Shown here: piece after piece, positions 18,526-46,620 of the stretch
How the letters are laid out: each line of letters opens with the position of its first letter
How positions within the stretch are numbered: the first letter of the stretch is position 1
NCBI GenBank assembly: GCA_030295235.1
Contig: AP026171.1
Location: 1-49,208, forward strand
Length of the DNA: 49,208 bases
Direction: 5' to 3'
DNA from: Fistulifera solaris
Lineage: Eukaryota > Bacillariophyta > Bacillariophyceae > Naviculales > Stauroneidaceae
Position numbers and translations under genes: made by a program
The notes under the pieces: generated by a model
What the model saw: only the letters and a program-made list of their open reading frames with translations
Databases searched by the model: none
What the model was told of the DNA's origin: nothing

Positions 18526-21500
18526 TTAAGAGTATGTCATTAGAGAAGAAAGATGGCCTAGGTGCTTCTCGATCATGCAATTCTGCAGCGTGCGGGTACA
18601 GTCATCGATTGTCAAATCACACGACGATAATCCCAGCAGGGCAAATTCCCAGCTAGCACCGCTGCGAAACAAACACCCAACAGTAACCGTTCTGGTAGGA
18701 AATGTGTCGAAATCCGGAAACGTACATCGAACTATCTCTGTCCCATCAGCAGAATTGAGCATATTAAACGCAGCAGACAAAATGTGGTCCGCTTGCTCGC
18801 CAAGGTACGGGCCCAGTGAAAAGCATATGTAATGAACATCAGTTACCGCTCTGGGTAAAGCGACTTGGAACCGATCTTCGACGTATGCAACAGAGAGATC
18901 TTCCGATTGAGAATTTTGACGATGTACAACGTCAAGAAGATGAGTATCTTTGTCCATCAGAAGGGCCAAGGGCAGAACATTTTCACCGTTGGCTACCTTC
19001 CAATACAATCCAATGCTAAGGTTTTCTGGTAGTGGTGCAGCATAGTCCTCGATTCGAATACTTTCGCCTGAGCGCATCAATGCTGTTCTCTCAGCTCGTC
19101 TAGATATGCGGGTTGCTGATCCCTGGGCAATCACCTGTATTTCCGGTTGCATACTGCCGAATTCGCGAAATCCTTGATAACCTGTCGCCATGACTTCTAG
19201 GTCCCACGTGTTTCTGTTCTTTGCTCGAGAAATCCGTAAGAGCACGACAGACGTGTCCGAAGGTGTAAGTTGAGGAACAAATCGACCAACACCTTGACCA
19301 GTAATAGCGTCTTTACACCGTATTTCTAACGACTCTATGCCAGAAAAGAGTTGTCTCTTGCGGTCATTACAAGGCAGAGTGTTCCAACGTTCATTGGGAC
19401 GTTGTCCAAATCGATCACTACCGTATCGATTGTCGGTTGACCCGGTAACTCTAACCGTTCAGGAAAACAATAGAGCGGTTGGGATTAGTTCGGTTAGCAA
19501 AGTATACTGATTCATCCCACAAAATGAATCCATTGTCTAGATCAGTGGCTACGAAACTGGTCTCCAAGCACGGTCCCGACCTCCATGATAGGTCTAGCGC
19601 TATCTTCGAATGTTGTCTCAGAACAAAGACATGACCTGGCATCAAAACAGGATAGAACTTCGCAGTCATCTGGACCTTCACCTCTATTTGACCCGTAGCT
19701 CCGGCGCAATAAAATTCTCTCGCTTGCTCGGAACGCTGCCACAGTGTACCAACATGATACCTCCTCTTTCGGCAATGTTAGCATGATGGCCCCATAAACG
19801 TTTCTTTGCTGATTTGACGATCATAAATACGAAGTTCTAGTTTTCGCTCCTCTGCACAAGCTCTTTTGCCATATCCCCGCCAATTTCACAAAGATTTCGT
19901 TTTCTTTCCATACAGGATTGCTCGATCGACGAGCAGGGCCCGTTTTACCACAAGACTTGCCACCGAGATACAGTTCAACAAGAGGTTCCGCTGACTTCAT
20001 TTTACCAAATATGTTGCGATCCAGTGACACTAAACCACGGGCCTGTGAGACGGTAACGGTCAAAGTGGCGGATGACATGATCGAAGTCATTGCTTGTCCA
20101 TGATTGTGGAATGGTATAGCACTACTTTCTTGCGAGTGAAAACTCGAAAGAGAGGACTGACTAGCTTGAAGCCCAAATGAAGGGCTTTCGAACGACAATT
20201 CGGTGCTCCTTATCGACTCATTGGCGTCTTTCTCAACCGGAATAGTATTTTCAAGCTTGTTATTTACGGGCACCCCGCTTGTACCAACTCATATGTAGCT
20301 GAAACACCAAAGGAATGCATAGATTGTGAGTGAGGTTTTGTATAATCGACATCGATAGTTCCTGTTCTTGGCCCAACATAATGTAGCGACGATGACAACT
20401 GGCCAGAGGTCCGCTTTGTTAGTGCCATTGCTGGCAAGACGGGGTCGTACTTGTGATGACCGACGCCGGATTTTTTTTCATTTAAGATGAAGTTCTTTGC
20501 GTCCTTCGCGAGTGATTGTTCAGCACTGACATTATTTTCGGTTCCTTTTGATGCAAGTATGCGGCGCGGATGCACAACAGCGGTAACTTTTCGACTCCAC
20601 AGAGATCTTTTGGTTTTAGAATCAGCACTCGACCCACTTGATGAGTTATATGTATGAACTTCACACCCATTGTCCGCTTCAGATGTTAAGGTGTTTCGTT
20701 CGGAAATATTTCGTACCGTAAAAGTAGCTCCCAGTTTGGCGCAAGCGACTGCATCGTCAGAGGATTTCACACGAGAAGGAGGGGCGCAATTTCTATTGCT
20801 TGAAGTTACTTTATCAGCTGACAAACTCCACTTGGGCGTTTTTCGACGACCTCTATTATTTTCATGGATCGGTGCACCTCCAATCGGTAGTACAGGATTA
20901 ACCGTATAGCTAGCCGCTGACGGAATGCGATGAGTTTGTACCTCGTCATGCTCTGTCTCGCTAGTGTCAGAATCGCAATCACCGGACTTTTCATCCCTTT
21001 TGTCATCATCACCTTCCATTACAACGGTCAATGCTGTTTCGATAGCTGCAGGAGTCTCATTGCTTGATTTGGGAATTAGTTTTGCTTGAAATAGTTTCGA
21101 TTTGATGCTCGGTGATTCAATGTGATGGCCTGGCGGATCACGAAGCCGGTAATCTTGCCTTCCAGATCCCCTATCGCGACGCCCGCCACGTCGTTTTCCT
21201 GAAGATGAGATTAAATCATCAGAAGAGTTCCATCGTTTTAACGGCCTTCTTTACGACTCCCATTGTCGAACCCTTCATGAAAAGACCAGTTTAACAACTC
21301 TGGATTAGCCCATTGTACTCTTCTTTGTCGTTGCGTATCACTGTCTCTGCATGTGGGCCAGAACTGATCGCCGACTTGAATGTCATTTCTTGGCCCGTAC
21401 TCATTATTATTCTTGGCCGCGAAGTATTCGAAGAAGAGTGCTGCACCACGCTCACAACTTCGGCGCTAACTGCTTCACCCACAAACGATGATTGGTGCTC

Positions 21501-21767: not shown

Positions 21768-22595
21768 TGCGTTGTCTTTTCTTGCTTTTCCGTCATGTGT
21801 AGATGCTTTTGAAGCCTTGAGGCGACTTTCCGTTATCTCTTGATCAATCTAGGCGCGTGTTGGCTCCTTTACCTGCTCTGGTAAGCGTCGTCGAAGGCCA
21901 TGTCGTTGACTGTGCTTTTCATCGATCATGCGCGTTTATTGAGTCTGTAAACGAAAACGTTGCGACCCGTTTGAAACAAACAATAAAGAGCATAGAAGCA
22001 GGCAGGCAAAGGGGCTACACCGTATGTGAGAGTGCAGTGTTCAGTAAGCGTGAAAAGAAACGTCTTGGGTAAGCTGTGTTTCTGGAGGACTATTTCAGGT
22101 CGATGACAAAATTGGAGTGACCAAAGTCCTGATTTTTTGTAAAATTATCCATGGATAAGTTTGGGCTGCTAGCTTTTCTACAGGAGTGACAAGTACCTTG
22201 AGGATTAACTTAAGAGAGTTTTGGCCGAAATGACTGTCCTACGGAAATGGTTAATGGTTATGGTCATAGTGTGTGATAGAGACATTGTAAAATCGTGAAT
22301 GAACTTGAATGAGTCCGGAGCGAAGGTGGCAAACTTGATTATTCTGCGCGCGTTTAAAAGCTGAAGCAAAACTGGTACTTGATACTGGTACAATGAATAG
22401 CACCTTAGCAGTGAAAATTTACTCCGTATTAGATCAGAAACACACATATTACGGTTTATAACTTGATTATATCCCTTCGAATCTTTTCTATTCCCAAAAT
22501 CAACGCATATCGATGGCCTAATTTAATATTTTACTAGCCAAGGTAACTTCCTCTCGCGATGCTACCAAATACTGGCAACTTTCAGTAGAAAATCT
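21768..22595. other. Spacer between C2-TerD genes A and B
   Basis: 828 bp. The first 80 bp may be coding or 5' UTR for gene A. The rest holds no gene I recognise. A GTAC motif pair lies near 22376-22393. Confidence 0.5.
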
Positions 22596-25500
22596 TCAGG
22601 AATCATGATGCTTTCTTTGGAACAGGCACCAGAGGAGGTAGTTTACAAGGTAGTTCAACAGGGAGATCTCCGGGGTAGGTATTCGACTTCGTTTCACCTC
22701 TTCTCGGAAAGCGTGGGCAACTTCGCAGCTATTCGTCGCTTCTGTCGGACGTCCAATCACGTAAAACGTCCAGGGAGAGTCTACCGAGGATCGAAGAAAA
22801 CACCCTATCAGAGCCTCCCCTGTCCAGTGCAAGTGGTAGGTTCTGGTACGTCATAACTTATGGCCACATGGTTATCGCCGCCCAGAATACTACAGTGCAA
22901 GCTCAATAAAGGATCAGCTACTTGTCCATTGTACGGACCCAAGGAAAACAAACGAACATAGTTCGACTGGAAACGCGAGTCAAGTCTACTTCGACTTTGT
23001 CGCGGTAGCTTCCGACCGGAATGTCATCATCGTCCTCGCCTTCCCTCCGCAATGCAGAACCGAGTTATCGCGACTGTTGGGATTTTCAAACAAGACCTCG
23101 TCTAGTTTGTGAAAGTCCCTGTCAAGCAATGTTATCACACTGTCAAGCCGCACTCGATAGTGCGTGCCCCATTGTATATGCACAGATATCTCATTCGCCT
23201 CCAAGTAATCTTCAACTCTGATGCAACTTCCTGGCCTTAGCCACGCCGATCGCCGAGCCGGCGGAACCTTATCAGGAATCGTATGTCGACAGAAGGCATG
23301 AAGCTGCGGTATTAAGCTGCCGCATTCTCTTATAACAGGATAACCTTGACCAATCGGACACAATTCCATGAATGATCCTTTCGGGTAATCCGAAACAAAA
23401 CCATACTGGTGTCACCTCGCGACAATTCTGGAATGAATCGACATACTCCGTCATCGGAATCAGAATTAATGCAACGTACTTTTAGAACACCCAACGCACT
23501 TAGATCATCGCGAGGCATACATAAAACCATGAATAGCGACATAATGCTCTTATGGACCTTCTCCAGTTCCAGTTGCCAAATTTCTTCGCCATCTGGACGG
23601 CAGTAAATCTTCTGGTCCGATCTCAGCACACCCCACTTCACTATGCTTTGATTTGGGTTTACTGCCCGAGAGAAGTAGATGTTTGATCTTGAATTATTTT
23701 TGGCCGGATTCTTCGTCTAACGCCACACACGCTGACTCTGCCAATACATTCTGATACCCCAGGAGAAGCCGATGGTTAAATGATTTGGCAATTGCAGCAA
23801 ACTACCTGGCACTACATCCGAGCAGCCGTTGCGATAAAGTCAACAGAAACAAGGAGCTCTCCCGAAGCCCCAGGGCTGAACAAATCGTGATGTCGAGAAC
23901 GCTTCATAACACGATACCATGTAGCGGACTGACTTCCTACAACAGGAACTTGAACACACCCCATGAACTCATCATTCCCTAACATATCCTGGTCGCAAAG
24001 TCTCAACTCGATTTTTCCCCAGAGCGAAGTAAGGCTCGAGCTTGGTCACAGCCTAGTTTTACCTGAAACATGCCCCGCTGGAATACTGGATTTAGTGTTT
24101 TATACACGGTATCACTTCTTCCGACACATTTCCAGTTGTAATTTTCGAAAACAAAGGCTTTGACAAAGGATCGGACGTCGTAGGTCGTCCCAGTAAGTCT
24201 TTGTCCAGCGCTACCAAGTTTCGACCCTGCAAAACATGTATTAACATTGTGGCCGATCCCATCGTTCGACCAATTACTTTGCGAGCCACCGGCGCAACAC
24301 TTTCGGCTTCAGTAAGGTCATCTGATATGACTGGGGTGCTTCTCGGCAGCTTAGCGATGGCTGCTCCTAATGAGGCTCGTCGATTCATACGACGCATCGC
24401 ACTCGAACTAGCACCATGCGTTGTCGAGCCACGACGACTCGCCATTGGGGCAACCTGCGTACTAGTTGTTGCTTTTGGATTTACAGCAGTCGTTGCATCT
24501 GAAGTAAAAGTTTTGCGACAGAGATTACTTGTATTGGTTGCGAATATTCGCCGGCAGCAGCTGCCACAGATGCTCGCCGTCCACCACGTCCAGCATCTGT
24601 TTCCGAGGTTCGGGATTGTTTCATAATTTTATTCCAGTCCGAGGCGGCATTTTCGCCTTCTTTTTTTTCTTTTTTTTTTCTTTCCAAAATGGCTAGCATT
24701 CCCAAACTACTGTCTGAATTAGATCGTACAAGCACCGGCATACCATCCCCGACTGCTTACGATTACTTGCCCCGTTTTCTCTTGTCTCCAACATATCCAT
24801 GAGATTCTTTGAAGAATTTCGACGCCGCGCTTTTGTCTCATCGTTTGGTTCTCCTAATCTTGGCCGAGAAGAGGATCGCTTAGGTGGCGATCCCTCCCCA
24901 ACACGAAGCCGTCTCTCTTCATCACTGTGAGCACGTCGAGGCCGAGGCCGTGACGCCGGACGTACTTCACGCGGTTCATCCTCACCTAGAGCATTAATTC
25001 GTGACCGCGACGAGCTACGTTTCTTCCTTCCTCGTTTCCTGATTCTTTTGTTTTAGGACGACGACGAGCACCATCTTCAGGCCGGGGCTGTTGATCGGAA
25101 GACTTTGACTTTGCGAAGAATCTTTACTGACATTCGAAAATGAACTATCCGCCGCATTTGTGGTAGAAGAAGGCTTTTCCGTGCTGATTTTGATGACGAA
25201 ATTAGATTTTCTAAACCGACATCATCGGTACTTTCGAGTGTGTCGATGCTGTCAGAAGACGAAGTTCCCTTGCTTGATCTTTTGAGGTTTCTTGGCCTCT
25301 TCAGCTGTTGCATTTCTCTCTGAACGTTTTGGCTTAGAGCTAGAGCTGATTGTTTTCGATTTGTGGGTGATAAATCAGTTTTGTCCTCATCGATCGTCGT
25401 TGACACTGGTCGAGTTGTCTTTGCTTCGCTTCCGGACTCATTGTAGCAAAGATGTATGCAGTTCTTTATTCACCCGCAGCTTTCCAGTGTTCTTCAATAA

Positions 25501-25647
25501 ATGAGGTGATGAATTTGATCGCGATACTCGCCTCCGAGGAGCTTTATCTTCATTATCAGTCTCAGGTTTGTCTCGAGGAGGTCGAGGACTTGAACGCTTC
25601 ATCGGAGATATCATTTCGGCAGACGTCGAATCGCTGGCTGTCTTCAT
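22596..25647 (-). CDS. C2-TerD protein B
   Basis: About 1,010 residues from the ATG at 25647 to TGA at 22598-22596. The N-terminal half is basic and Ser/Arg-rich (SSPRPPRDKPETD, RRRVSRSNSSPHLLKN, SSSRSR), with a Lys-rich run KKKEKK. C2 (about 24250-23810) reads SATMLIHVLQGRNLVALDKD, NPVFQRGMFQVKLG and MRLCDQDMLGNDEFMGCVQV, and its first-loop Asp residues are retained. TerD 1 (23780-23330) includes NIYFSRAVNPNQSIV, EIWQLELEKV and CRFIPELSRGDTSMVLFRIT. TerD 2 (23270-22640) includes RPGSCIRVEDY, VITLLDRDFHKLDEV, NSRDNSVLHCG and GCFLRSSVDSPWTFYVIG. NSRDNSVLHCG is close to the DGSV-H-GD motif of bacterial TerD. The frame changes at many points, mostly consistent with missing single bases. Confidence 0.8.
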
Positions 25648-26570
25648 TGTGGCTTAATAATTCTCTATCTGTTTATTCCCAACTTTCTTCATTTAAGTTC
25701 TTTAAAAATAATAAAAACAATGATGCTTCTCACACAAACCCGCGTCGACGAGAAGAAAGTCACTTGTTCTTATTATTTCTGCTTCTTCGCCCCTGTTTCG
25801 CTTTTCGGTTCCAAAACGGCAAACGGGCGAACTGGGACTATTGAGGAGAAGAGACATCACAACGCGGTCATCAATATAGGTCATACGGATCACATGGATG
25901 ACCCAGAATTCTACAGGTACCAGGTACCGTACCTGGTAAATCTTAGTGCTCCCCTTCCTTTTGTAGTGACCTTGCGGTCTGTCGTCGTCGGTTATCCGAA
26001 CGGTTCTCGCAATAAATATTTTAGTGGTTTTATCATACTGGTTAAAAAGTCAGTCTTCCTTGTTAAGTTCGACAAGTACATTCGACCGTGACTGAAGGAA
26101 ATCCAGTCTTGGTTATCGCCGGCCAACACTTTGATCTATAGTAGTTTGGACAGACCAACCACGAGAGTGCCATGGAAATTAATGCGGATGATAAATCTGA
26201 CGAGAGACTAGACAATGGAGCAAATTAGCAGAACAAGTAAAGGATAAGCAACAGTCTATGCAAACCAAATATTCATGGATCACGACTAATGACTGCAATA
26301 CAGTCTTAGTTACTATGATTTACACTTGACCTATAAAGAAATGACTACGAACCAGAAGAATATTCGACGTAAGCAATTTAGCTGCTGATAATCAATATAC
26401 AAGTATTGCTAACAGAAGATAAATAGAGCTTGCCGAGCCTTCAAAAACAAAATAGCATTCTACGACGGAGAGTATTATGATTCATGGGTAAAATCCAGTC
26501 AGTACCTCTTGTCAAATAAGCCTATAAGAACTAAATGCATTTAACTTCTTTGTACCCATATTCTCGCAGT
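25648..26570. other. Spacer between C2-TerD genes B and C
   Basis: 923 bp with the promoter side of gene B and the 3' side of gene C. A dense palindromic GGTACC cluster lies at 25916-25938. The open frames here carry no recognisable domain. Confidence 0.5.
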
Positions 26571-28882
26571 CTAGTTTCCTGAAGATGTTTTCATAGCTTT
26601 GAGCAATCGGTCAGCAAAAATAACTCCATCTGAACTATCTATATAAGATTTTGCTGGAACGTCAAACGGTTCGATCGCAAATAGGGACGACGGCTTCGGT
26701 GATGGGTGGAGATTGTAAACATAGTCGCACAATGCGTGTAATGAATTGCATTTCGTTGGCGAACCAATTGCCCAAAAGTCCCAATACGACTCATCTGACC
26801 GATTGAGACATCCGACCAGGATATGTTTGTAGCCACAACTGGGATCAATAGGGCAGTCCGTAAAGCGAATGAGCTGAGCTTCCGTTGCTGGATCCCAAAC
26901 ATGACAGGAGAATTCTGCAGTAGTAATGAACGCTATTGTTTGAACTCTCATACCCACGCGGTGCAATTCCAGTTCAATCATTTTACGAGTCATTGTGGCA
27001 CTGCGATCTCGCGACTTCGTGTGATGTTGATCAACAACGTCAACGCGCTGACCCCGTTCATCTAAGAACAATGCCATGACATCACCTTTCTTGCATCGAA
27101 TGTCTATGACCAAACTGATCAGTCGTGGACAGTAATCAAGCAAATGAATACATGTACCTGGTTGCATCCACGCTGTCCGTGAAACACTAAAAGGATCTTG
27201 TATGATATCGCACGCACACATGTGCAGCATTGGTATCAAAGCCCCAAGATCCGATATGATTGGAAAAGATTTCATTAAAGCCATCATTTCAAATCCATTG
27301 GATTCCAAGGTGATTCGACCAAGCAAGGTGATTTGACTCGCTGGAACTTTCATCCGACCAAGACCTATTCGCTCTTCCAAACGGCAGGTCGCAGGTTCTG
27401 ACGAGTCATTCACCACAACAAAAAGAGAGCCGCTACCGACTCCGGAGATTCTTCAAATTGCACCGCAATGAAGTAGATTGGCGTTCGAGTGATTCGCACT
27501 CTTGTTTGTATGAGACAAATCGCTCAAGCATTCATCCCACTGGACCAGCCCATGCTTCTTCGTTATTGCAATAGCCGAGATAGGAAGACTACAATGCCAG
27601 TAGCACGAGGTAGGTATATTCTTTAAAACCGAACCAGCGTCTAAGTCATGCATTGTAGACCCTCTAGTGTAATATATGCACAGACTTCAAATGGTGAATC
27701 TTCTATCGAGAAAACCAAGATGATTCTGTGGTGTGCATAGGCAATGGTATCGACCCAAGAAATCGCGGACCATTGTAAATACGGAGCTCAATAGGTTTGT
27801 AATCCTCTTCATTTTTCAAAAATCCTTAGCCTCATCACACGACAGCGACATCTGTAATGTCACAGGTGAAACCGTGGTTCCCGCTATCGCTACTATCTGT
27901 GATACTTTTTCTGTCCACTCGTTGTGGGATGTCAAAGCGTACGCTTGATACCACAATTGTGACTTCGTCTGCATCCATTTTGAAGGGAAGAGCGCTTGTT
28001 GAAGTTCAATAGTGATTTGCAGTCCAGCTAGGGATCGTACAACAGTGCGGCGACGGGAAGGCGACTTTTGGACTAGAGGAGGAACTACTTTTCGTGAACT
28101 CCGTTGAGCATCATCACTGCTGTTTTGATGGCAACTCTGCACTGCTGCGATGCTGTCGAATCGACTGCTCTCCATGACTACCTTGAATGGATTGTGGTGT
28201 TTTGATTCTCTCCGACTCTGTACCAGCACTTTGGGATCTTTTAAGGATAGGCGGGGAAACAATTTGCAATTGTGCCGATGAATGCCGAGTCACCGGACGA
28301 GGTGTGACCGGAGTAGATGGACCGGACGTCGATAGCGTGGGGACTTGGGCAACAACATCACCAACACGAGGCATACTAAGACGACGACGGGGACCGCCCG
28401 TGGATCGAATGGTACGACGAGAAAAGGGTGAGTCAGCAAGACTGCCGCGTCGGGGCGTGTGGTTACGCCCTGAATCAAAGCCACTCGCATTTCCTGTCGA
28501 GGAACGACGGTGCATCGATCGACGTGGCGACGAGCTGCGCCGCGGACTGACTCGTTCAGTCGCAAAAGTCGAATCGTGCGAGCCTCGGGTTGTACGTTGA
28601 TGTCGCGAAATAGACGAACTCCTTCTTTGTGAACGTCTGCTCTCTGCTAAATCGCTTCTTTCCATGTCACTGCTACTTTTAGACGATATTGACCTCGATC
28701 GCGCAGCTCGTGACCTTTCTCTCCCAGGCTCAAATACTTCACCAGGCAGCCCGTCATCTTGGCACTCAATCGAAGTACTTCTCGGCTTTTATCGGATTGA
28801 TTCGAGCACAAAGCCGAAGGGCTTTCTTTGGCTGCCATGTATTCTCTAGCTGATCATCTTTCACCATATCGGTCGACACCAT
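26571..28882 (-). CDS. C2-TerD protein C, with divergent C2
   Basis: About 770 residues. The best start is the ATG at 28882 (MVSTDMVKDDQLENTWQPKK); an alternative ATG lies at 28838. The disordered N terminus is rich in Arg and Ser (SRRSQRRSSSISRHQRTTRG, RVSPRRSSSPRRSMHRRSS) and contains PRRRLSMPRVGD, a motif shared with the small basic proteins nearby. The C2 region (about 28050-27690) is divergent: it begins LQITIELQQALFPSKW, keeps strand-like spacing and lacks clear loop Asp residues. TerD 1 (27640-27230) shows CSLPISAIAITKKHGLVQWD. TerD 2 (27190-26700) shows MQPGTCIHLLDYCPRL, VMALFLDERGQRVDVVDQHH and HILVGCLNRSDESYWDFWAI. The last 282 codons read without a shift. Confidence 0.75.
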
Positions 28883-29424
28883 CTCTTCAACCTCAATTCA
28901 GAAGCGCTTTGCCAGCAAAGAAAAACTGTTGCAAGAAAAATTATTGGTGATGCCAATAGAAAGAAAAGCCGAGAACAAGATTGATGTAAAACCAAACATC
29001 GACAAAGACTCTCTTCTTTCTTTCACAGGTCACCACAACTCGAAACCATTTAAAATTCAAATCTTAATAATGTCTCATCACGTCTCGAAGCATTATCAAA
29101 TGCTCTACTCTCACGATCGCGAGACTGCGCAACCAAGGAACACCGCAGAAGCACAGTGGCTAGAAAAGTACTATTAATTTATCTTCTGAAGGCCGCGAGC
29201 ATAAGGCCCACACCGCCGATGGCAAACGTTAGTCGTGTCGTACTCGTGAAATGTTAGGCCGTTCATCTACACAAATCCGACGTGTCTAAAGAGTTTAGCC
29301 AAGAGTCGATTAAGTCGAGAAGTTTCTTTAGAATAGTAGGTTATTAACAATTACTAGCTTTAATATCACAAGGAGGGTTTAGTTCGCTACTTAAAGTAGC
29401 TATCGTCGAGGCGTTGAAGGCCAA
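28883..29424. other. Spacer between gene C and small basic protein J
   Basis: 542 bp. A plus-strand frame of 82 codons (28929-29177) has no recognisable features. Otherwise AT-rich spacer. Confidence 0.45.
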
Positions 29425-30276
29425 TCAAAATGTACTTCTTCTGCGCTTTTTGCCGTAACAAGGAGGCTTCTCCCGGCTTAATTGTTGCATGGATTGCGCG
29501 TGACGGGCCAGACGTCGAGCGGCGGGTGATTCAAGTGTTTCTGAGACTTGTGGGGATGCCGAACCTATTTTCGTCATGCTCAGACGGCGCCGTGGAGGTA
29601 ATTCGGTTCCACTCGTGCGACGACGCTCAACAGAAGCTGTGCGTCTACGCCGGGGTTCCACGGAAGAAGAACGTCGAGCTCTTCGTGGTGTTTCTGAAGC
29701 AACTTCTGCTGCTGATGGAGAAAGAACGAGAAATTCTTGCTCTAGTTTGACAGCCGAGGACGTTCTCCGTGGCCGACGACGGGGACTGCGTTTCGAAGAT
29801 TCATTTGATTCGTTTGTTTCATTGGAGTGATTCGTGCATGTCGACATTCTCCGCCTCGGACGTCTAGGGATTGTTTTTCCTCTTGTTGATAAGGAGAAAC
29901 GAGTGGTGAGCAACTTTGTATTTGCTTGAGTTTTCTTTCGTGAGAGTATGCACATCTCGTTTCGGCGTCTGAAAAGAGCTTTTATCCACGCCTGTACTCC
30001 ATTCTCCTGAAGAATCAAAGGAAAGTCATCTTCAAACGCACTAACAGAATCAGAATGCACTGTCGACGGAGTAGAAACAAAGAAGTCGTCGGCTTTTGAT
30101 CGAGGTGTCGAGGGCGTAACAGACCCTCGTTTCTCGCGAGGTGTTGTTACAGGGCGCGGCCTGCTGCGACGACAGCGCGGTGTAAGTGGATCCATGGTGT
30201 CTGCAACAATTGCTCTGTCGAGCCGATTATTGTTGATTTTGTTGTTGCTCTTGTTGATTGATGGATGAATGTTCAT
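29425..30276 (-). CDS. Arg/Ser-rich disordered protein J
   Basis: 283 residues in one uninterrupted frame from the ATG at 30276; a second in-frame ATG at 30195 (MDPLTPRCRRSRPRPV) may be the true start. The protein is very basic, with repeated RR and SPRR motifs (RRRPRRTSSAV, RRARRSSSVEPRRRRTASVE). Near the C terminus, RRRLSMTKIGSASP and RRLARHAQSMQQL are shared in order and spacing with protein E on the opposite arm, and RRRLSM also with protein C. An acidic-aromatic patch (SVSAFEDDFPLIL) may correspond to the DDW patch of proteins E and F. No RRM, signal peptide or membrane segment is present. It is a paralogue of the disordered N-terminal regions of the C2-TerD proteins, without the C2 or TerD part. 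Function unknown. Confidence 0.65.
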   Translation of the reverse strand: MNIHPSINKSNNKINNNRLDRAIVADTMDPLTPRCRRSRPRPVTTPREKRGSVTPSTPRSKADDFFVSTPSTVHSDSVSAFEDDFPLILQENGVQAWIKALFRRRNEMCILSRKKTQANTKLLTTRFSLSTRGKTIPRRPRRRMSTCTNHSNETNESNESSKRSPRRRPRRTSSAVKLEQEFLVLSPSAAEVASETPRRARRSSSVEPRRRRTASVERRRTSGTELPPRRRLSMTKIGSASPQVSETLESPAARRLARHAQSMQQLSREKPPCYGKKRRRSTF

Positions 30277-31031: not shown

Positions 31032-31052
31032 CCGTTTCCCGGGCTCTCCCTC

Positions 31053-31342: not shown

Positions 31343-31486
31343 TCCTTCTCGACGTTCATTGAGTTCGAATGGATGTCAAAGAATGATAATGACCTCTCTT
31401 ATTCATATCACTTTCTCCTTGCTTCAAATAGACGAATAGAGATCCTTCTTGCGCAGGATAAGAAACTAAGATTGTCTGAAATCGCA

Positions 31487-35095: not shown

Positions 35096-35628
35096 AGAAT
35101 GCATAAATGTAAATAATTATAATTTTTAGGAGGATAGATTAAGAGACGCTAAGAGAGACGCCATGGTGATCTCGGTCTCATCGCTTGGTTCATCGACTCC
35201 TCGTCCCATTTTTATTGGGGTTAATTTCGCCTGCGCGCATCAGTATTACAAAGCCAGGAAAAGATCCTGTCGCTTGTCAACTTAGTACTAAAAAATCGAA
35301 TTCGTGACTCTGAGAAAGCGACACATTCAAAGCTTCAAAGTGTACCAGGTAGCGAACCCAATAATGGCCTTCGCAATTCGCAATCACGCTCAACCGCACA
35401 CACACAACACACCTCTCTCATCATTCATCATTTCCAGGTACTCCGTACCAGTATCATTCATTGTCAAAGCCACCTTCGAGGCAAACGTCAACTACTAACA
35501 CTACAAAGTATATTATTTGCTGCTGATTGCAATTGAAACTAATTCCAGTTCAAGGGTGTGAGTTGTAACAGATCGTGTAACGAAAAATTTGAACGCCAAC
35601 AATCATCGTCTTCCTCACACACAACAAC
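35096..35628. other. Spacer between genes E and F
   Basis: 533 bp. A GGTACTCCGTACC motif lies at 35438-35450 and a CA-rich stretch near 35397-35411. No gene was recognised. Confidence 0.45.
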
Positions 35629-36876
35629 ATGACACATTTGGACGAATGGATGTCACCAAAAGAAGCTTTACCTCGAAGAATCGTTTACTTCATCAACACA
35701 GGCGTCGGACGACTGGGAGGTCTTTCCATCATGGCATGAAACGATTCTCGTCTCTACAATACCAGAATCTCCAGTCAGTCGTCGTTCGTCGCTCGGATGT
35801 AATAATGTGCACAGCGTCAGTTCCTTCAGTTCGCAGCGACTTCTCTCTAAGCCTGTTGAGTCGCCTCGGACGACACGTTCCAGTCGGCAGCCGCCTTCCT
35901 CGCGAACACCTCGACGTGTCTCGGCATCAACTAGTTCCTGTCCTCATTTGAAAGAAAAATCCCTCGATTCCACCGCTTCCCCGATTTCTGTCGTATCGAG
36001 TCGCAACGTGTCACCTCTCGCCGCCGACGACCTTCCGCAGTATCCACGTCCCAGATGTCGGCAGGAACGACCGATACAATGGAAGCATCCGTCATCTCCC
36101 CGAAGCGAACAGCGTAGTAATGTTGACAGTGTTCGACATTCATTGCAACCTAAGCCAATATCGCAGCGACAAGCCCAAGCGAACTCGGAATCTAGATCCA
36201 AACAAAGAAACTCGCAACAATCGTAGTGAAGAAAAACGATTTGTCACCCACGGTAGCGGATAGAAAGAAAATGTCCACTCAAACAGAAAGCGATTACACC
36301 ACGACGGAAACCGGAAAAGCCCGAGGAGTCACCGCAAATAGCACACAAGAACGTATCGAGAGAAGCAACGAAAACAAGGCCAAATTCGAGAAGAGCTTCC
36401 ATGACAGAGGGGTCCCAAACGCTGCAGAGAAATTCGTTTCGAAACGAACAAGCGATCATCGTGGCATTAGCCGCCGTTCTGCGTCACCGCGTCGTCGACG
36501 TGAGTCGATGGCTTCCAAAGCATCCCTGCATCGTTCTAGCAGTCGATCGAAATCACGCAGCAAGGCACGTCCTATGGATGTCTCGGGTGATTCTTCCGCG
36601 AGGAACAGCAAAGTCCCCTGTGCACATCACGGCATCGCTTGTCGACAGGATTCGGCACTGACAATCAAGTTTGCAAACTCGTTGTGCGACAACTTCCTCA
36701 TCAAGGCTCTCTTCGAAAAGGATGCATCGAGATTTTGGAGAAGTCGGATCATTCAGTGCTTTCCCCTCGTCCGTTTCCCAACGTCGCTATTCCGTGTTTT
36801 GAACAAAGATAGAAGAAACGCATATATTCGTCTGAGGCGTCAGGAACAATGGAGACAATTTGAAATGAGCAAATGA
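35629..36876 (+). CDS. Arg/Ser-rich disordered protein F
   Basis: About 415 residues. The ATG at 35629 gives MTHLDEWMSPKEALP. After one shift the frame enters SDDWEVFPSWHETILVST, which resembles the DDW patch of protein E. The rest is Ser/Arg/Pro-rich (SSRQPPSSRTPRRVSASTSS, SRRSASPRRRRESMASKAS, SRSKSRSKARP). The last 70 residues are less biased and contain hydrophobic and aromatic residues (FANSLCDNFLIKALFEKDAS), perhaps a short folded tail. Shifts occur near 35690, 35800 and 36225. TGA is at 36874-36876. No C2 or TerD domain follows before a spacer with typical intergenic motifs. Confidence 0.5.
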
Positions 36877-37203
36877 CGGTGAATGGATTCTAAGCTTTCG
36901 AATGCAATGAGGATGAGATCTCCGCGCCCCATGCTTAGCCAGTAGTACTGTCCAAGTGTGAATTCTGCAAATCATTCACGAGTTTATTGTTTTACTGTTT
37001 TTATAGTGTACCCGGTACAGAGCCTAAAAGAGCCGTTTCAACTGTGATTGCTTCGATAAATGGATCGTTCCTTTTTCCCGCTTTTACTTGCAACAACATG
37101 CAACGCGATCGTCGCATCAATCTCTCGATTGCGAGAGCGGCGGCTCCGGCATTATCTCTCTCTCTCCCTTTGCGGTCTGCAATCCTTACATTTCAACTCA
37201 ATC
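36877..37203. other. Spacer between genes F and G
   Basis: 327 bp with a GTACCCGGTAC motif at 37009-37019. A purine/pyrimidine-biased stretch (CTCTCTCTC) occurs near 37155-37166, just upstream of the gene G start. Confidence 0.5.
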
Positions 37204-39081
37204 ATGAAGAATACACAACAAGACGATGTCTCCTCGTCGGCCGGATCCAGCGTCGACGAAGACGTTTGCGGGAAACGATTGGTCCCCAGAATCATTGCAT
37301 TCTTCAACGACGACAACGAAGCCTCAGCAGCAACAGAATCAGCGACACAGCAAACAAAATGCAAAGACGACCGACTCATCCTTGTCTTCGAAATCTCGCA
37401 AGGTTACACGAACTCATTCGCAACTTCGTAATCTGGTCGTGAAATTGCTTTCTCCCGTTTTACGTTCGTCGAACGCAACACAAAGTTATCCCGCCGGTCC
37501 CGACAGGCCTCTGAAACGCACTGTGAAGGAAACGCAACAACCTCTGGAGAAGAAAGATAAAATCGTCGACCTTGTAGCGGAGATTCAGCACCGCGACGTT
37601 CTGCGCCTCCCCAGAGTCGTCAACTTGCGCTTGCTGAAGAAAAGAAACAGTCACGGCGCGACTTGACGGCAAAGCAGCAGCACAAATCGATTGGTCGACT
37701 TTCGATTAGCAACACACCTCATCCCGAAGAAAATGTAGATACGAAACGAAAATCGATAGCAAATGGGACATCGGAGGGAAGAATACGGGTCGTCCTCGTA
37801 CGTCATTTGTGACGCAAGCCAGTGTCAAAAGAATGGGAACGGTACCTGCATTAAAGACTGTTTCGAAAAGGACGTACCTCGATCCGATGAGATGATGAAA
37901 CAATTCAAGCAATCGCCGAAACAAACTTCGAGACGTATAGAGCAGGGACTCGCCGCAGCAACTTCTATTCGACGCAGCCCTTCACCCAACAAAAGCAAGC
38001 TTCGGATCGTAGACTCACCTTTGCCAAGACTCCGTCTCGTCGAACGATCAAAGAAGGACAACACGAGCCAGGTCAATCACGTCGAAAATTGGTAGAAGGC
38101 AGTGCTGCTCGGAGTGAACGCAACCTTATTCGCACGATGCCTTCGGCTGCACAGATCCCAACCCCGCCAATAACCGATACAGTAGATAATCGAGCAATAC
38201 GGAAAGGATTAGACGAAAGAACGAGTATCGCGAATAAATCTCGAAAGGAACTGATTCAGATGGCATCGCAACGACGCTTTTCGTCTTCCGGTACGGAAGA
38301 TGTGTCGCTCGGGAGCCGTCTCGGAGAGCCTTGACGAAAAGCCCCATTGCAAAGATCGTGGAGCAAGGAAAGCGGTGCCATCCGTCAGCGATAAGCAACC
38401 GGATATTGAATGGAAGCCCGAAATCGAAGAGAGTTCCGGCCAAACAGGGTCTCCCGCACGCTCGAATGAATTGAAAATTGTTCAGGGAAGCGTCGTATCG
38501 CCCGATTCTCCCCTCGTCAGGCACAACGGGTTTCCATGAGAACGATTGGTGCATCCTCTCTTTCGTTGCGCCAGATTCCGCAGATAATAGAGGAGAGTCT
38601 CTCCAGCGCGAGCCGTAGCAAAAGCAAAAGATCTTTCCCGCCGTGTTTTGCTGAGCTCGACGGGAAAATCTGAAGCCAGTTTCAAGTCGCAGCGTTCGGT
38701 GACCAAGAAGGAAAAGATAGCAACCAAGTTGCTCGTCGAGACGTCGCTCAGCCACCGCGCGGCGCTCTCAAGAGAACTGACCCAGTGAAGAAGGAATCGA
38801 CACCGAAGCTGCTTCGCACAGAAGGTACGGCTATGTCGAGATCTTCTTCGAAAAGAACGTAACAAATCGTACTGCTCGGCGCAGGTCTATCGACCTAAAG
38901 ACTAAATCTCCTCGGCGTCGTTCTGTCTCACCAACGGAACCTACCGAAAGCTCAGACTTTGACTACAGCCAGACAAAAATATACCCTATACCGCCTCACC
39001 TACAAGAATGATATCTTTCGCTCCGAACGTGTCCTCGAGAAGGAATATGAACTGGATCCAATTTTGAACAAGGTAAAATAG
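37204..39081 (+). CDS. Arg/Ser/Gln-rich disordered protein G
   Basis: About 625 residues from the ATG at 37204 (MKNTQQDDVSSSAGSSVDED). It includes NDWSPESLHSSTTTTKPQQQ, which may be the counterpart of the DDW patch in E and F. Basic low-complexity sequence follows, with blocks SSLSSKSRKVTRTHSQLRNL, KKESTPKLLRTEGTAMSRSS and KSPRRRSVSPTEP. The best end is a frame reading KNDIFRSERVLEKEYELDPI and stopping at TAG 39079-39081. The frame changes at least seven times. No globular domain was recognised. The call rests on sustained biased composition on this strand and similarity of layout to E and F, not on a known family. Confidence 0.42.
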
Positions 39082-39308: not shown

Positions 39309-41982
39309 ATGCATCTTCCGAACAAAAGTCTCGTCCATTTTCGTTCTTCACTCAACTTAACAGCAGCAGGGAGGAGGATGAAATTCTTTCTCGAGCTCCT
39401 TCTTGCCCATAATACAGTTAATAACATGGGAGAAGTCGACATTTCCGGTAGTCCCAGTGCAAAGGCAACAGTTCGGTTAGGGACCGCCATAACGACACGA
39501 TCTTCTCCGAATGTATTGATCGACGATGCAACGCTCGACACGATATTCTGTCCAGTTGATGGTCTTTCGATTGCTTCCACTCTTGACGATGTATTCTGCT
39601 CAGCTTTAACGGATGATTCGATCGTCGATTCGCCCACGCAGCGACGGCGGAAGCAGCTTGGCGAAGTAAAAGCCCTCAGCAACGAGATCGACAATCTCTT
39701 GTTAAGAAAGACAATAATAGACTCGTTTCACCGAGAAGTAAGCCGGCGTTCTTCGAAAACCTTTCAAAGCAACGCAAAACAGAGTTGAAGAGCAGCCCGC
39801 GGTATCCAAGCGCGTCGAAACAGTTAATCATCGAACAGGAGTCGTTAAAGTCGCCTCATACTCAAGATGAAATGATTAAGAGAAATTTACCTTTGAGAAG
39901 TGTTTCAAAGTCGCGAATACAGAATCTCGAAACAAATGACGAAGACCTAGGGAAAACAACGAAAAGACGAAGTTTCGTTTTACAAAGAAAAGGTGCCAGA
40001 GAGCTACAGAACGATATACTCGTCAACAACTCAGACCCAAAACGAAGTTCGTCACGAAAGTCAGCAAGTAGGAATCTTGAAATGCGGATCGAACGGTCGG
40101 TTAGTTCACATCGACGAGGGAGTTCCGAACCACGGATAAGGGATCTGAGGCAACAAAATAAAGATGACTTGGTCGAAGGTGGATGTCGGTCGTCACGAAC
40201 ACGGAGTTTAGAAAGGAAGGTCGAACAGTTACGAAGCGTTCATAAGAGAGGTGATGCTGACCCTGCTGAGAAACTAAACAAGGACAAAAGTGAAGATAGG
40301 CCAATGACCCCAAACGCTTCAAAAACATTCCCGGGCGAAGCAGCTCAGCGTCGGGGCTAGAGAGATTAACTGGGCAAACAAGAAGAGCGCTTAACAAACG
40401 AGAAGTACCTCAGATTCTCGAATCTCACAGATCGATCATCACCACGAAATTTATGAAGTTAAGGAGGACGTAAAGAAGAAAGTGTCGTCTCAGACCATCC
40501 GTTCGATACGGCGGAAAGAACGCTTGCAAAGTCCGTCTGGACGCTCGCGGCAATCACTGAAGAGAAGGAATTCCAATTCACGGATTGAAATTACCGAGGA
40601 CAAACTTTTAAAGGGCATTAAAGAGTCTTCAGAGCGCGCAGCTAGATCCCCAAATCGAAATAGATTAAAAGCGAAAGTTGACAATGGAGTTACAAGATCC
40701 GAACCTACAAGAAGCTCACACAGACGAAGAACTTCAAAATCTCCTGTAAAGATTCCTCTTTACAACCAAAGAACGACGCCAAAGAAAAATCGCAACGGAC
40801 ACGCGGCTCACATTGTTCAAAAAGTTTCCATGGACATATCAAAGAATCAATAAAACAAGAAAGTGAGCGACGGAGCATTTCACAGGATAAAAGGGAAAAG
40901 TTAGAACGCCGCGGCTCAAAGTTAAGGATTGTTCATCACGACGGTACGGACAAAGGTGACAGTTCAAGGAGTTCTGACGCGCGAGACAGCTCGATGTCTA
41001 CTAACCAAAATTTGAAGAGAGAAGGGCGCAAAGTGTCAACTAAAGACACAGTGGTCCGTTCCGAATCTTCGCCGCACACACCTTCATCGGACGTAAATTA
41101 TGTCAGCCCGAAGACATGGACTGTAAACAATTTCCAAACGGATAAAGTTTACCTAATACGGCCCTTTGGCGAAAAACAATCCAACAAAAGGGCGCAACAC
41201 CAATTTTGAGTTAGTGGCGTCACAAGCACTACAGCATCCCCACAGACTTTTGAGGATGAACCAGAGAATCATAACCAACATCACGTTACAGAGTCTACCA
41301 TGAAAGGACGTCTTTTCCCATGCTGTACTCAAGCTTGCAACCGCTTTCCGGGAAATTGTTGGGGACGCGAAACTCTTACAAAATGAGTTGGTTGTGACGC
41401 GAGAGTATTTCCCCACTTCCTTGGAAGCATTTGAAGCAGCAATAACGCCGAGAAAAGAGGAAAATTGGCACTTCTACAAACTGACGAAATTGATGAGCAT
41501 CACACGCCTGCGTCTCCACGTAGGCAAATCAAGAGTTTAAGTCCGACGAGATTTTTCAAGAAGGCATCTAAACGATTGAGTAGCGCGGTGGCGCAATTAT
41601 CTGGACGCGTGTTCCCAGCAGGTACAAGCGATTCGTCGAGTCGAAAAGAAACATACCAAGAGGCGTCTGTCGCTCAGAACAAGGTAGATGTAGTCCGACA
41701 GGAAGCTCCTCGTGAGTCTGCTGTCCAACCTAAAAATCTTATGGAAATCTTGCTCAAGACATGTACGGCAATGCCAAAGAAGACAGCGCTAAGGAGGACC
41801 CGATCACGTCGAAAGAGGGTGAAGGAAGAACCAACGCAAAGCAATCAACACTTTCACGGACCAGGGCCCGCAGTAGATCGGCGGGTCGTTTGCAGCTAGA
41901 AAATGATAATGCAAGGGCTTCCATTAAACGGACGAACAACGGCAAAAGTGTGCCCCGCATTAGCTTCAAAATCCTTCCGTGA
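39309..41982 (+). CDS. Long Arg/Ser/Lys-rich disordered protein H
   Basis: About 890 residues. The first ATG is at 39309, with an in-frame alternative at 39426 (MGEVDISGSPSAKATVRLG). The N-terminal 130 residues are mixed and partly acidic (LIDDATLDTIFCPVDG, LSNEIDNLLLRKTIIDSFHR). The remainder is basic with regularly spaced SRSLE, SSRKSAS and RRKERLQ patches, including LSPTRFFKKASKRLSSAVAQ, LSGRVFPAG. Frame shifts occur near 39785, 40365, 40850, 41210, 41430 and 41750. TGA is at about 41980. It lacks C2 and TerD domains, and the following 1.7 kb is non-coding on this strand. Whether H is one gene or several is uncertain. Confidence 0.42.
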
Positions 41983-43651
41983 CCTCGACTTATAGTGTCG
42001 AGCTTCTTTTAGATGACATATGGGTCTGATGCAGGATCAAACCTTACATTACTAGAAGGCGGCCACCATATTCTGGAAGTCAGCTGGTGCGCTGCTCTTT
42101 GTTTTCCTCCTTCACTGATTAAGAAGAAGAATGTAAAATGATTGATTATAAACAAAAACACGTGGAGCATGGTGTTTTGAAAATTTGTTTATGGGACTTG
42201 CCACAGAGCGATTTTGTTCTAAAGGTTACAAAAAGGCTACCGTCGCACGGGCTTGATCTGTTTTATTTATTTTACATAAGGCTCTCATCACGAAAACTCA
42301 TTAGCTATAAACATCTCCCAACTATGATTTTAAAACAGATGTTTAGAAAAGCCAACGAAATAAACTTGTTGAATGAATCGATTGTGCCGTGGACTCTCTC
42401 GCCATGATTCTGCTCTTTCATTATCAAACCGGCTTCCTACATGAAATGTAAGCGTCTGCATCGCACAGTTTGTGAGAGCGGTCAGCAACCTGTTCCATTG
42501 CGATTGTGTGAAACAAGCCATCACATCCGTTCCCAACTCGAAATGTTTTAGGTGCGGGTAACCTGGCATCCACTTCAGGAGAGCCGACGTAACCGAAATC
42601 ATTAATGTTTTGTTTCCTTGTAAAATCTAATACGTCTGACAATACTGCTGGGTGTAAAGCAACAACGAACCCGCCACTAATTCGAAGAGAGATCACATGA
42701 CAATCTGATAGCGTTTTGCATGAATCATGTACGGAACCGGTAAATTGTTTGAATGAAAAGTGCAGATTCGATCGAATGAATCAGTCGACAACAATGTGTG
42801 TTAACGAAGTAAAGAAGTCGTTTGAAGTATGTCATCGAAACTTAAAGATGTGTTCGATTCGTAGATATACCAAAAGTGTTGTTTGTTGTGCCAAGCTGTT
42901 TAGGAAAATGCTTTCAGCCTGGCGATTGGGAAAAGCCGTACCAGTACGTCTATGGAATACAAAGACGGTCGTAGACCTGGCCCAGATTGAGAACGACTCT
43001 GTTGATTGCTTTCCCGCTGTGGACTGTCTGATAGCGAGAGAGTCTTTTCATCTACACCATCTTTTGACCTCGTTGCTCAACGGTCGCTCCTTTCTTTGGG
43101 TTCTTTTTTCTTTTGACGACTCCTCTAAAGGAGTATGTAATATACCCTTTGCATATACTCCTTTGACTCCTCTGTCCTCTGTGATTGTTGTGGTTTGTGG
43201 TCGAAAATCGACTGTCGCAGCTTTAGGTCTGTTATGTCACTTATAAGATCCTTTCTAATGGCAGCTCGGGACTGGACGCAACGGCTTTTCTTTTCAAACC
43301 CGTACCAGGTACTTTGTGTATAAACGAAAAGGTCATCCGCTTCTCCGGTTCTCCACAAATTTCGGCGAACGCGACGAGAAAACAACTTTTCTGGGACAAT
43401 TCGAGAACAGAAGTTGACAGTTGACCATAAAGTCCGTGTCACGAGACAAGAGCTGGATGGCTGCTTTCGGTCTTCTGTCTTTCCGTCGTTATTATCTCAC
43501 CCAATGCATACTCGCAACTGGATATGTCAATTTTTACGTTTTCATCGGAACACACAGTAAAGTAAGTAGTTTTCGTGTCGACACAGCATAAAAACGAAAA
43601 AGAAGGATGTTACTAAGCTTTTAAGATGGAATGGCAATAATCACTACAGCA
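41983..43651. other. Long spacer between genes H and I
   Basis: 1.67 kb. It contains a possible minus-strand coding segment (42424-42738), an 18-bp near-direct pair AAAGGAGTATGTAATATACC/CATATACTCCTTTGACTCC forming a small inverted repeat (43131-43168), and a GTACCAGGTAC motif (43303-43313). Plus-strand frames here show no domain. Confidence 0.45.
42424..42738 (-). CDS. Possible hypothetical protein fragment
   Basis: A minus-strand frame of about 105 codons ends at TGA 42426-42424 and reads SDCHVISLRISGGFVVALHP, SDVLDFTRKQNINDFGYVGS, then FRVGNGCDGLFHTIAMEQVA. The composition is balanced and protein-like, unlike surrounding frames. There is no in-frame ATG, and a stop lies just upstream, so it would have to be a 3' exon or a frame-shifted C terminus. 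No family was recognised. Confidence 0.25.
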   Translation of the reverse strand, partial: GSVHDSCKTLSDCHVISLRISGGFVVALHPAVLSDVLDFTRKQNINDFGYVGSPEVDARLPAPKTFRVGNGCDGLFHTIAMEQVADRSHKLCDADAYISCRKPV

Positions 43652-46620
43652 ATGTCTTCTTCGAACGGATCAAAAATGTGAAGCAAAGAGGAGCAGATCC
43701 GCCGGGAAGATCGAAAAGCCAATCATAACAGCGGAAATACTGACGAAGCTTCTCCTGTTGAATTACCAAACAATGAGTTTTTCTCAGAGCGGCGTTCCAA
43801 GAGTCGAGGACGCTCCTTGGGGCGATCTACCAGTAGCAGGGGATTGCATAGAGCAACTAGCAGTCGCTCCCTTGCCAAATCTCAGCGTAGCGAGTCTCTG
43901 GCAGCGTCTAAGGATAAACATAGGAGTGAAGGTAACGAAAGATCAAAGAGCTTAGGAAGAGGAGAAAGAGGAAGATCGAAGAGCCGAGGAAAAAGAAGGC
44001 CGCGACAGAAGACGGCAGATCAAAAGTCGAAGACGGAGATCAGAAGCGGGGCGAAGGTCTAAAAAGCCGCGGGAAGATTACAGCAGAAAGGGTTTCAAGA
44101 AACGATAACGCCCCTCATCCTGACGGAAATGGAGATCAGCTACCAAAAGAGATCGCACTCAGAAGATAGAGGTGTCATCATCTAAAGCGGCACAGTCACC
44201 GCGTCCATCGATTTTAGAAAAGGCTCCGAGAACCCAGTCTGGTTCGAATCGTAGCACATCTCCATCCATACAAAAACTCGATGCGCCTTTTATTCCACCA
44301 ATTCGAAATGTTGAGCCAATTCCAACGTTATCAAAGAAGCTGTTAACAAGTTACCGGCCGAAGCAAGCATTTCCTCTAAACCAGCTGCCGTGAATCGAGG
44401 TGTAAGGCGGAGTACTCGGCACATGCCGACATGAAGACGGCAATAAGGTCCCCAAAGCGATCTCAGTCGACCGATGAGATCAAGATATCTCAAAGAAAAA
44501 GTTGCCAACGCCTACCCCTTTTTCCTGAAAGGGAACTCACCCCAGATGTACAAGTCAAAACGTTGCCAAGACAACGTCTTAGCAATTCAAATGCTTTTGA
44601 CAGAGTAAGTCTTCTGAAAGACTTTCAGTCGACGGATGATAATCCTTTTCACCAAAGCAAGCGATCGATAAGGCTGAGTATAATACCACACATATACCCA
44701 ATCCACAAAAGTTGCAGTGAAGAGTTATTCTGATCTAACGAAGTCCAGTTATCAAACGCGACATTCGCCGAAGACCAATACGCAAACCTTGGTGGCATCC
44801 GCGCGTTGTTTGTAACTGTTTCGGAAGGTCGATGTTGGTCCCTATGCAGCGCAACATTCTTGGTTTCAAAACTTACTCTCATCCTTACATTGAGGTATAC
44901 GCTGACGGGAAACTGCTTGGTAAAACAAAACATGCTTACCGAACCGTCAATCCTGCATGGAAGAGCGGCAACTCATTCTCTACTCATTATGACGCTATAA
45001 CTGCCAAAGAAAAGGCTTCTCGCAGCGAAAGAATAGAATTACATGTTCATCATCTTGGAAAGGGCGGTGTTGCTGCATTTATGGGAGCTGTTCGCATTCC
45101 CCTCTTAACACACGGTCGAGCAGAGTGGTACCCTGTGCAACAACGTTCTGCTCTGGATAGTGGATTGTATTGCATTAATGCCTCGAGAGCTGCAAGTGCA
45201 AGTGAATTTTACTCGCGCATTCTTATCCAGAATTGAAGCCTGGTCACGAGTTACTGATCTCTGGGAATGCTGAGATATCACTCAATCTATCTTGGTCCAG
45301 TGATTCTTCCCTTGAAACGAGCTGCGTCAGCCTTGACGGAAAGAATGGACACGTGACTTTGGAAAGAATGCGTTTACTTTGCAAATCGGATTAATATGAG
45401 TAAATCTGTTGCACGACCGGAGGTGCAAGATCACAAGGATATGGCGACACGAGATTCGTTGTTATTTGATTTTGGAATGGTGCCGGAGAATGTTGCAGCT
45501 TTTTGTTGTTTTGACGATTCAGCGACAAATCATTCACGCTGTCTGACTTACAATCCTTTCAGCTTTCTGTCAGGAATGAGTCGACACGCGGAGGAATAGG
45601 GCACATATCGGTCAATTTCGGCTTCTAAGGAAACATCAGCTATTTTGTTGCGCATCACTCGTTCGACTCTGGGGACAAGCAGCACGTGGAAAATTGCAAC
45701 AATAATCAAAGGATATAAAGTATTTCGCGAGTTTGGAAGCCTTTTACCCCAACTTCAAGAGCTCTCGGGTGATATTCTGCCAAATATAGGAACCCCTACT
45801 GGACGAACAGCATTAATGCGATGTGGCGATAGCCTTCAACTTTTGATTACGCATCGGATCATCTACCAAGCAAATTGGTGACTGGCTTCTTCTGGAAGGT
45901 CAAAACAGGGAACCATTAAAGTCGCAGTATCTCTCCTCGACGAAGAGTTGCGGAGGTAGACGCAATTCAGGACACAACCAGGGTCACACGAGCCTCTATA
46001 TCCAGGAATCCGCGAAGTTCGAGGTAGCCTTTGCCCAACTATCATCAGATGTACATTACATCTGCTTTGTTAGGTCCTTGTAGCCGTCAGAAAGTTGATG
46101 ATATCGAAAGCGTGGCTTGTCATATTGTAAACTCCGCTTTGGGGCTGAGTTAGCTGATGTACATTGTCAAGCTTCGGAGCGCTCCCACAAAATCAATCGG
46201 CCTAGGATGCTTCTACAAGACGGAAAAGGATGGAGCTTTACCATTCTCGGTTTATGTTCCACTGATACTACCTTTATGGACGCCTGAGCGAGCCGCAATC
46301 ACATATTCGAAAATCCCCTGGAACCCGCCGTCTCACTACCTCACCCTCGACTTCTAAAAGCGTTATGCCGCCAGCCATTCCACTGCCACCGCCAAGACAA
46401 CTAGTGTTTTCGGACATCGTGGAAGCACATCACAAATTCAACCACGGACAAAATGTATCTACCTCTACTCTACTTACAGTACGCAGACAATCAGAGAAAC
46501 AATATAAGATCTAGAAAGTCTAACAATATTTTGCTGTTTCCGTTGGATAGAAAATCACTTTCTGATGCTGCTTGGCTGCTTGAGATCCACGAAGACATCG
46601 ACCGACTTACAAATCCATAA
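43652..46620 (+). CDS. C2-TerD protein I
   Basis: About 990 residues from the ATG at 43652 (MSSSNGSK). The disordered N-terminal 370 residues are rich in RS dipeptides (RRSKSRGRSLGRSTSSRGLH, SLGRGERGRSKSRGKRR). C2 (44790-45230) is the clearest of the five: LFVTVSEGR, then SLVPMQRNILGFKTYSHPYI, EVYADGKLLGKTKHAYRTVN, PAWKSG and RIELHVHHLGKGGVAAFMGA. Gln replaces the usual first-loop Asp, so calcium binding is doubtful. TerD 1 (45240-45790) has ISLNLSWSSDSSLETSCVSL, ECVYFANRIN and LLFDFGMVPENVAAF. TerD 2 (45640-46370) opens with YKVFREFGSLLPQLQEL and ALMRCGDSLQL, and WSFTILGLCS lies near its end. The tail DAAWLLEIHEDIDRL stops at TAA 46618-46620. Frame shifts are numerous. Confidence 0.75.

Follow-up and report, generated by a model that had tools for sequence, protein, structure and literature searches.

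TerD domains (PF02342) are known from bacteria as single domains, as in the Klebsiella entry 2kxt (calcium-binding by its title) and the Streptomyces entry 3ibz. Among eukaryotes, FAZ28 and FAZ30 of Trypanosoma brucei are TerD proteins of the flagellum attachment zone and offer a likeness at a junction of membrane and cytoskeleton; in the accessible part of that source, C2 domains are reported in CC2D, FAZ22 and FAZ35, not in FAZ28 or FAZ30 (PMC10953051). Closest to the locus described here are diatom proteins of about 560 residues, such as P0010 of Craspedostauros australis, P0011 of Stauroneis constricta and P0045 of Seminavis robusta, in which a C2 domain is likewise followed by two TerD domains. 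Here we describe a block of ten genes on contig C51 of the oil-rich diatom Fistulifera solaris (the entire contig, 49.2 kb, was analysed and is called the window; the assembly has 51.7 Mb in 61 contigs) and on two homoeologous contigs, C19 and C20. In five genes (A, B, C, D and I) the product starts with a low-complexity region, followed by a C2 domain and two TerD domains (TerD1 and TerD2). Unlike the bacterial domains, these are in tandem, fused to C2 and incomplete in their acidic sets; unlike the canonical diatom proteins, which have full TerD acidic sets and a short part before C2, they carry long tails and are clustered. As judged from sequence comparison, the block is a genuine and old cluster, a variant of a family that other diatoms also have, without complete TerD acidic sets.

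The preliminary description had taken the fusion of C2 to TerD as special to this block and proposed a search for the same domain order in other diatoms. The order is indeed found there, for instance in the Craspedostauros, Stauroneis and Seminavis proteins, and the supposed novelty has to be given up: a search with P0010 found 286 proteins, and 119 of the 120 among the matches listed (query included) carry both Pfam domains. All organism-labelled rows are diatoms (Craspedostauros, Stauroneis, Seminavis, Odontella, Skeletonema, Thalassiosira and others), and the annotation labels among the matches listed read TerZ, SCP2, hypothetical or C2 domain-containing. The fusion is thus not new, and the family extends among diatoms beyond Fistulifera. 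P0010 and B share 25% identity over 608 aligned columns, and the 22 matches of P0010 in the Fistulifera assembly (E up to 1) lie without exception on C19, C20 and C51. A TerD profile found three matches genome-wide, all in the block.

Genes were called on the C20 and C19 copies, not on the window, with a coding model permitting frame changes. The same ten genes were found on both, four on the minus strand (A, B, C, J) and six on the plus strand (D, E, F, G, H, I). They are given below in window coordinates, with the ratio of nonsynonymous to synonymous substitution rates (dN/dS) between homoeologues.

3..160, no strand: telomere repeat (CCTAAC)n, from repeat analysis; CCCTAA repeats also start C20 and C19
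18529..21796, minus strand: gene A; N-terminus acidic and rich in Ser, followed by C2 (about 19711-20073), TerD1 and TerD2; contig errors break the frame in the window; homoeologous copies C20:18564-21851 and C19:15846-19193; dN/dS 0.34
22565..25650, minus strand: gene B (NCBI name FisN_6Hh458), 1026 aa; disordered N-terminus, basic and RRxS-rich, then C2 with its acidic set kept, TerD1 and TerD2; copy C19:19809-22890; dN/dS 0.17
26574..28853, minus strand: gene C; Arg/Ser-rich N-terminus, C2, TerD1, TerD2, without Pfam match, fold predicted; copy C19:23370-25700; dN/dS 0.27
29402..30252, minus strand: gene J; Arg/Ser-rich protein with RRxxSM[TP] motif; dN/dS 0.35
31439..33628, plus strand: gene D; N-terminus rich in Arg, then C2, TerD1 (carrying a 36-bp tandem repeat insert) and TerD2, C-terminal end uncertain; copy C20:31537-33741; dN/dS 0.25
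34415..35103, plus strand: gene E; Arg/Ser-rich, RRxS-rich; motif in the C19 copy, absent from the C20 frame; dN/dS 0.41
35568..36787, plus strand: gene F; Arg/Ser-rich protein with the RRxxSM[TP] motif; dN/dS 0.47
37060..39064, plus strand: gene G; Arg/Lys/Ser-rich protein; dN/dS 0.45
39393..41960, plus strand: gene H; Arg/Ser-rich, an 870-residue open frame in C19; found only in the block; dN/dS 0.39
43580..46547, plus strand: gene I; C2-TerD-TerD paralogue, probably decaying, its frame broken in C19 and C20 as well as in the window; dN/dS 0.49

Gene C on C19 (822 residues), gene D on C20 (750) and most of gene B on C19 (709) are open without any frame change, and gene B on C19 is 99% identical to FisN_6Hh458 of F. 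solaris. Pfam searches with pieces of the window itself gave the domains that the preliminary description had expected for A (TerD, 1.3e-8 at 18526-19458; C2, 1.1e-6 at 19821-20288) and for I (C2, 4.5e-7 at 44739-45236), while TerD stayed below the cut-off in D (3.3e-4 at 31949-33112), B (0.17) and C (0.054). B and D were rescued on the C19/C20 copies (B: TerD 6.1e-16, C2 4.5e-12; D: C2 4.9e-8, TerD 1.3e-6). On these copies A matched TerD at 2.1e-14 and C2 at 1.6e-4, just over the cut-off; I matched C2 at 6.0e-10, its TerD part not being recognised by the profile. A, B and D thus passed the TerD cut-off of 25.3 bits, and matches to the C2 profile (PF00168) lay above its own. The C19/C20 copies of gene C had no Pfam match, and gene C matched gene B by BLAST (8e-21). 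AlphaFold models of B and of C without its tail, compared with the PDB by Foldseek, predict C2 followed by TerD folds, as the preliminary description had anticipated. The C2-TerD-TerD order is therefore given by predicted fold in B and C and by profiles plus sequence similarity in A, D and I; both TerD domains of I, and the second one of A and of D, are putative assignments from similarity to relatives. The expected shared order of a basic disordered region, C2 and two TerD domains holds for the domains; the tail of A is acidic. Disorder is predicted for part of the B tail (predicted local distance difference test, pLDDT, about 30 over residues 1-141 of the modelled piece) and was read from composition in the other tails. 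A 36-bp tandem duplication in TerD1 of gene D (window 32562-32635) is shared by C20 and absent from C19. Matches were not found with a gene C piece in a phage tblastn, in Rfam at the gathering score, or with a gene D piece in a PDB phmmer search.

The top Foldseek match of both models was 7jtk_A (Chlamydomonas radial spoke 1, chain A), at E 3.1e-14 for B and 1.7e-11 for C, whose tandem TerD-like part was aligned over 338 and 299 residues, respectively. It was absent among the PDB sequence matches listed (for two of the searches, the best 60 of 108 and the best 60 of 122), and no protein name for it was found in the literature searched. As a point of difference, 7jtk_A belongs to a ciliary complex.

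The duplications are old: identity to B is 24% for C and 25% for D, and every gene is matched by a single partner in each homoeologue. In a tree, 12 Fistulifera-type rows split from 23 canonical rows with branch support 100/99, though on long branches about which the program warns. The preliminary description had proposed evolution by local duplication; duplication is supported, a recent expansion is not. Stauroneis constricta shares the family Stauroneidaceae with Fistulifera, and Craspedostauros lies outside it in the taxonomy used; a topology in which B-type rows join Craspedostauros and Stauroneis was rejected (approximately unbiased test, p-AU 0.0028), again with long branches. B may represent either an older paralogue lineage or a fast-evolving protein. 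B-type proteins comprise that of F. solaris and four further proteins at 81-87%. Protein searches gave six matches for P0003 and six for the C2-TerD region of P0005, the NCBI B protein; about 7990 candidates were scored in each, so that distant degenerate relatives may be missed.

A departure from the canonical form concerns acidic positions, the putative calcium ligands of the TerD and C2 folds. We aligned 116 proteins of 540-700 residues (P0010-P0127, leaving out two longer ones among those 118, as well as P0128 and P0129) with both homoeologous copies of A, B, C, D and I and with the B orthologue P0006. All 116 canonical proteins have acids at four positions of TerD1 and five of TerD2, and 113 have them at five C2 positions, so that 113/116 keep all 14. 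The Fistulifera copies retain an acid at 0-2 of the four TerD1 and 0-3 of the five TerD2 positions, and none of the five has a complete TerD1 or TerD2 set. Likewise, the acidic clusters of the calcium-binding TerD type (DLDA, GDE and GDDE) are complete in both TerD domains of 116/116 canonical rows and incomplete in every Fistulifera copy. The C2 acids are complete in B alone (5/5, DDDDE); A keeps 3/5, D 2/5, C 0-1/5 and I 0/5. By these comparisons the Fistulifera form is unusual among C2-TerD-TerD proteins.

Since no copy retains the full acidic set, the TerD domains appear to be kept for another job. We tentatively propose, at a little under even confidence, that this is an old clustered family whose TerD domains have lost calcium binding and serve as calcium-independent scaffolds, with B still steered by calcium. 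The tandem TerD beta-sandwiches would bind proteins without calcium, and long N-terminal tails would have been added in the Fistulifera copies. B, which keeps its five acidic C2 ligand positions and is for this reason the most likely calcium-responsive member, would move to anionic membranes on a calcium rise, whereas calcium would play no part in the action of A, C and D. The basic RRxS-rich tail of B and the tail-like neighbours J, E and F resemble substrates that basophilic kinases would phosphorylate at several sites; they may be recruited to the scaffold at the membrane, and the C2-TerD proteins may assemble with their neighbours. Several points weigh against this proposal. Although A, B and the C20 copy of I keep 15-18 of 22 other invariant TerD1 columns, conservation is generally poor in C and D (9-10 of 22) and the C19 copy of I (8 of 22). 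In TerD2 the same residue is kept at 0-3 of 8 acids compared with 4-9 of 24 other invariant columns; there is no acid-specific loss, and TerD2 may simply have diverged. Acids at two of four TerD1 and three of five TerD2 positions leave room for weak calcium binding by the B TerD domains. The canonical set was chosen by likeness to one full-site query, so degenerate relatives elsewhere may be under-sampled, and the proteins compared were drawn from the 120 matches listed, the other 166 of the 286 lying outside the comparison. A canonical copy was not found in Fistulifera, by six-frame searches of one assembly. Finally, canonical relatives were present in the alignments from which both AlphaFold models were built, and the predicted C fold does not stand apart from them.

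The tails and the Arg/Ser-rich neighbours also enter this proposal. The Fistulifera copies have about 130-590 residues before C2, compared with a median of 10 in the 116 canonical proteins, and net charges per 100 residues of -5.3 in A and +9 to +10 in B, C, D and I. The neighbours J, E, F, G and H, with 15-22% Arg+Lys and 21-28% Ser+Thr, resemble the tails of B, C, D and I. The preliminary description read them as the disordered part alone, which agrees with their composition; support for sequence kinship is limited to a short motif that C, J, E and F have in common, RRxxSM[TP] (RR and SM separated by one or two residues). This motif occurs in 4/10 C19 proteins, compared with a mean of 0.03 and a maximum of 2 in 1000 shuffles, and in 0/380 open frames of at least 60 residues in the flanks. 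RRxS/T lies above the shuffled level in E, J, F and B, and less so in H. SR-type RS repeats were considered for the tails and rejected, RS/SR dipeptides being mostly at the shuffled level, though raised in I (21 vs 13.4) and slightly so in C (25 vs 19.9). Among 45 pairwise tests with 60 shuffles each, D-E was the sole pair over a z of 6 (7.3), and we do not count it as kinship because the aligned segments differ between the C19 and C20 copies; F-H (4.0), B-J (3.8), D-G (3.5), G-H (3.4) and J-E (3.3) are suggestive only. Single-gene searches with H, J and F, which did not include E and G, gave no match elsewhere in the genome.

In a wider version of the proposal, a clustered toolkit would have replaced a calcium-sensing C2-TerD-TerD protein: calcium-blind scaffolds A, C and D, calcium-steered B, and RRxS-rich, kinase-controlled binders at the membrane. 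We consider the toolkit as a whole unlikely, although not negligibly so. Further points weigh against the part of the tails and neighbours in the main proposal: the sequences had already been inspected when the motif was defined, it occurs in 3/10 proteins of the C20 set, an RRxS/T excess over shuffles is lacking in A, D and I and not clear in C and G, and the link of the neighbours to the C2-TerD proteins is limited to adjacency and the short motif.

Alternatively, as the preliminary description had it, calcium could be bound by C2 and TerD alike in a family linked to calcium and membranes. The folds themselves are real, B keeps its C2 set and part of its TerD acids, and in A, B, D and one I copy a single TerD1 position has Glu in place of Asp. 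However, the absence of a full TerD1 or TerD2 set from every copy and the near-complete loss of acidic C2 positions in C and I make this distinctly unlikely.

The acidic sites might also have been lost along with function in a decaying block whose genes are becoming pseudogenes. The paralogues are highly diverged and gene I is badly broken: under the setting applied to the other genes, its C20 copy needs 13 frame switches and its C19 copy 9, with 2 stops in addition, and 3 of the switches are near each other; a laxer setting gives 13 in each. Because the switches are many in both homoeologues, gene I has probably decayed, a conclusion that owes more to the broken frames than to its dN/dS, which is hardly above those of F and G (TerD1 of I reaches 0.63). 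A-D, however, are under purifying selection, with dN/dS of 0.17-0.34 and with 0.08 and 0.09 for TerD1 and TerD2 of B, and outside gene I a copy has only 0-5 frame switches. In A, C, J, F and G no switch is common to C20 and C19 within 60 columns, which for A and C is as random contig errors predict. One such pair does occur in the tail of B, where the NCBI protein is continuous, and one at the very end of D, which makes that end uncertain. With four relatives of B at 81-87% besides, we give decay of the block a slim chance. The retention of a bacterial-like Ter role in stress or metal resistance is improbable: a common fold does not imply function, and the acidic sites are incomplete.

It is most improbable that the window is a genuine third, pseudogenised copy on another chromosome: it is a separate contig bearing its own telomere repeat, but window 65-49208 aligns to C20:1-49538 at 98.6% with 115 mismatches against 355 gap openings, the block has 172 deletions in the window compared with 22 in C20, 93 of the 117 one-base deletions fall in runs of 3 to 6, and C19 has the missing base at 136/172. 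It is best read as a redundant, error-rich near-copy of the C20 end. Its broken frames are mostly contig errors, given the bases present in C19; real pseudogenes across the block as their cause were ruled out by the comparison of window, C20 and C19, gene I excepted. Gene counts on the assembly would be inflated by this low-quality 49-kb duplicate of a chromosome end. C2-domain matches in the genome search were often paired on neighbouring contigs, as expected for F. solaris, which is reported to be allodiploid in the accessible part of PMC13276009.

The position of the array at a chromosome end, already proposed in the preliminary description, is supported by the genuine telomere repeat at the left end of the window and by the repeats starting C20 and C19. 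A degenerate ACTTGC repeat lies beside it (window 523-1109), also in C20. A ubiquitin-activating-enzyme-like gene, named by its reading frames (L024 3343-5960, minus strand; L030 800-3465, minus strand), lies 1-6 kb from the contig end, so that ordinary genes occupy the chromosome end, and an open frame of C19 (L030 8351-9136) reads like a RING plus chromodomain protein. Left of the block, a second repeat family (window 7012-7694, 8744-9427 and 15954-16430; DNA about 67-70% alike) has frames that read like a glycogenin-type glycosyltransferase.

In the literature searched, no paper was found on TerD with a C2 domain in diatoms or on tellurium resistance, C2 domain and TerD combined, although subscription journals lie mostly outside it and an earlier description is possible; TerD with diatom returned a plastisphere metaproteome study only, in the part available. 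The present work thus highlights a C2-tandem TerD family in several diatom genera that has so far stood under mixed labels. Full-site and degenerate copies provide a natural comparison that makes a calcium role of eukaryotic TerD proteins directly testable, and genome editing is reported in F. solaris (PMC13276009, accessible part). If the toolkit account is true, eukaryotic TerD domains without calcium sites would have been retained as pure interaction modules.

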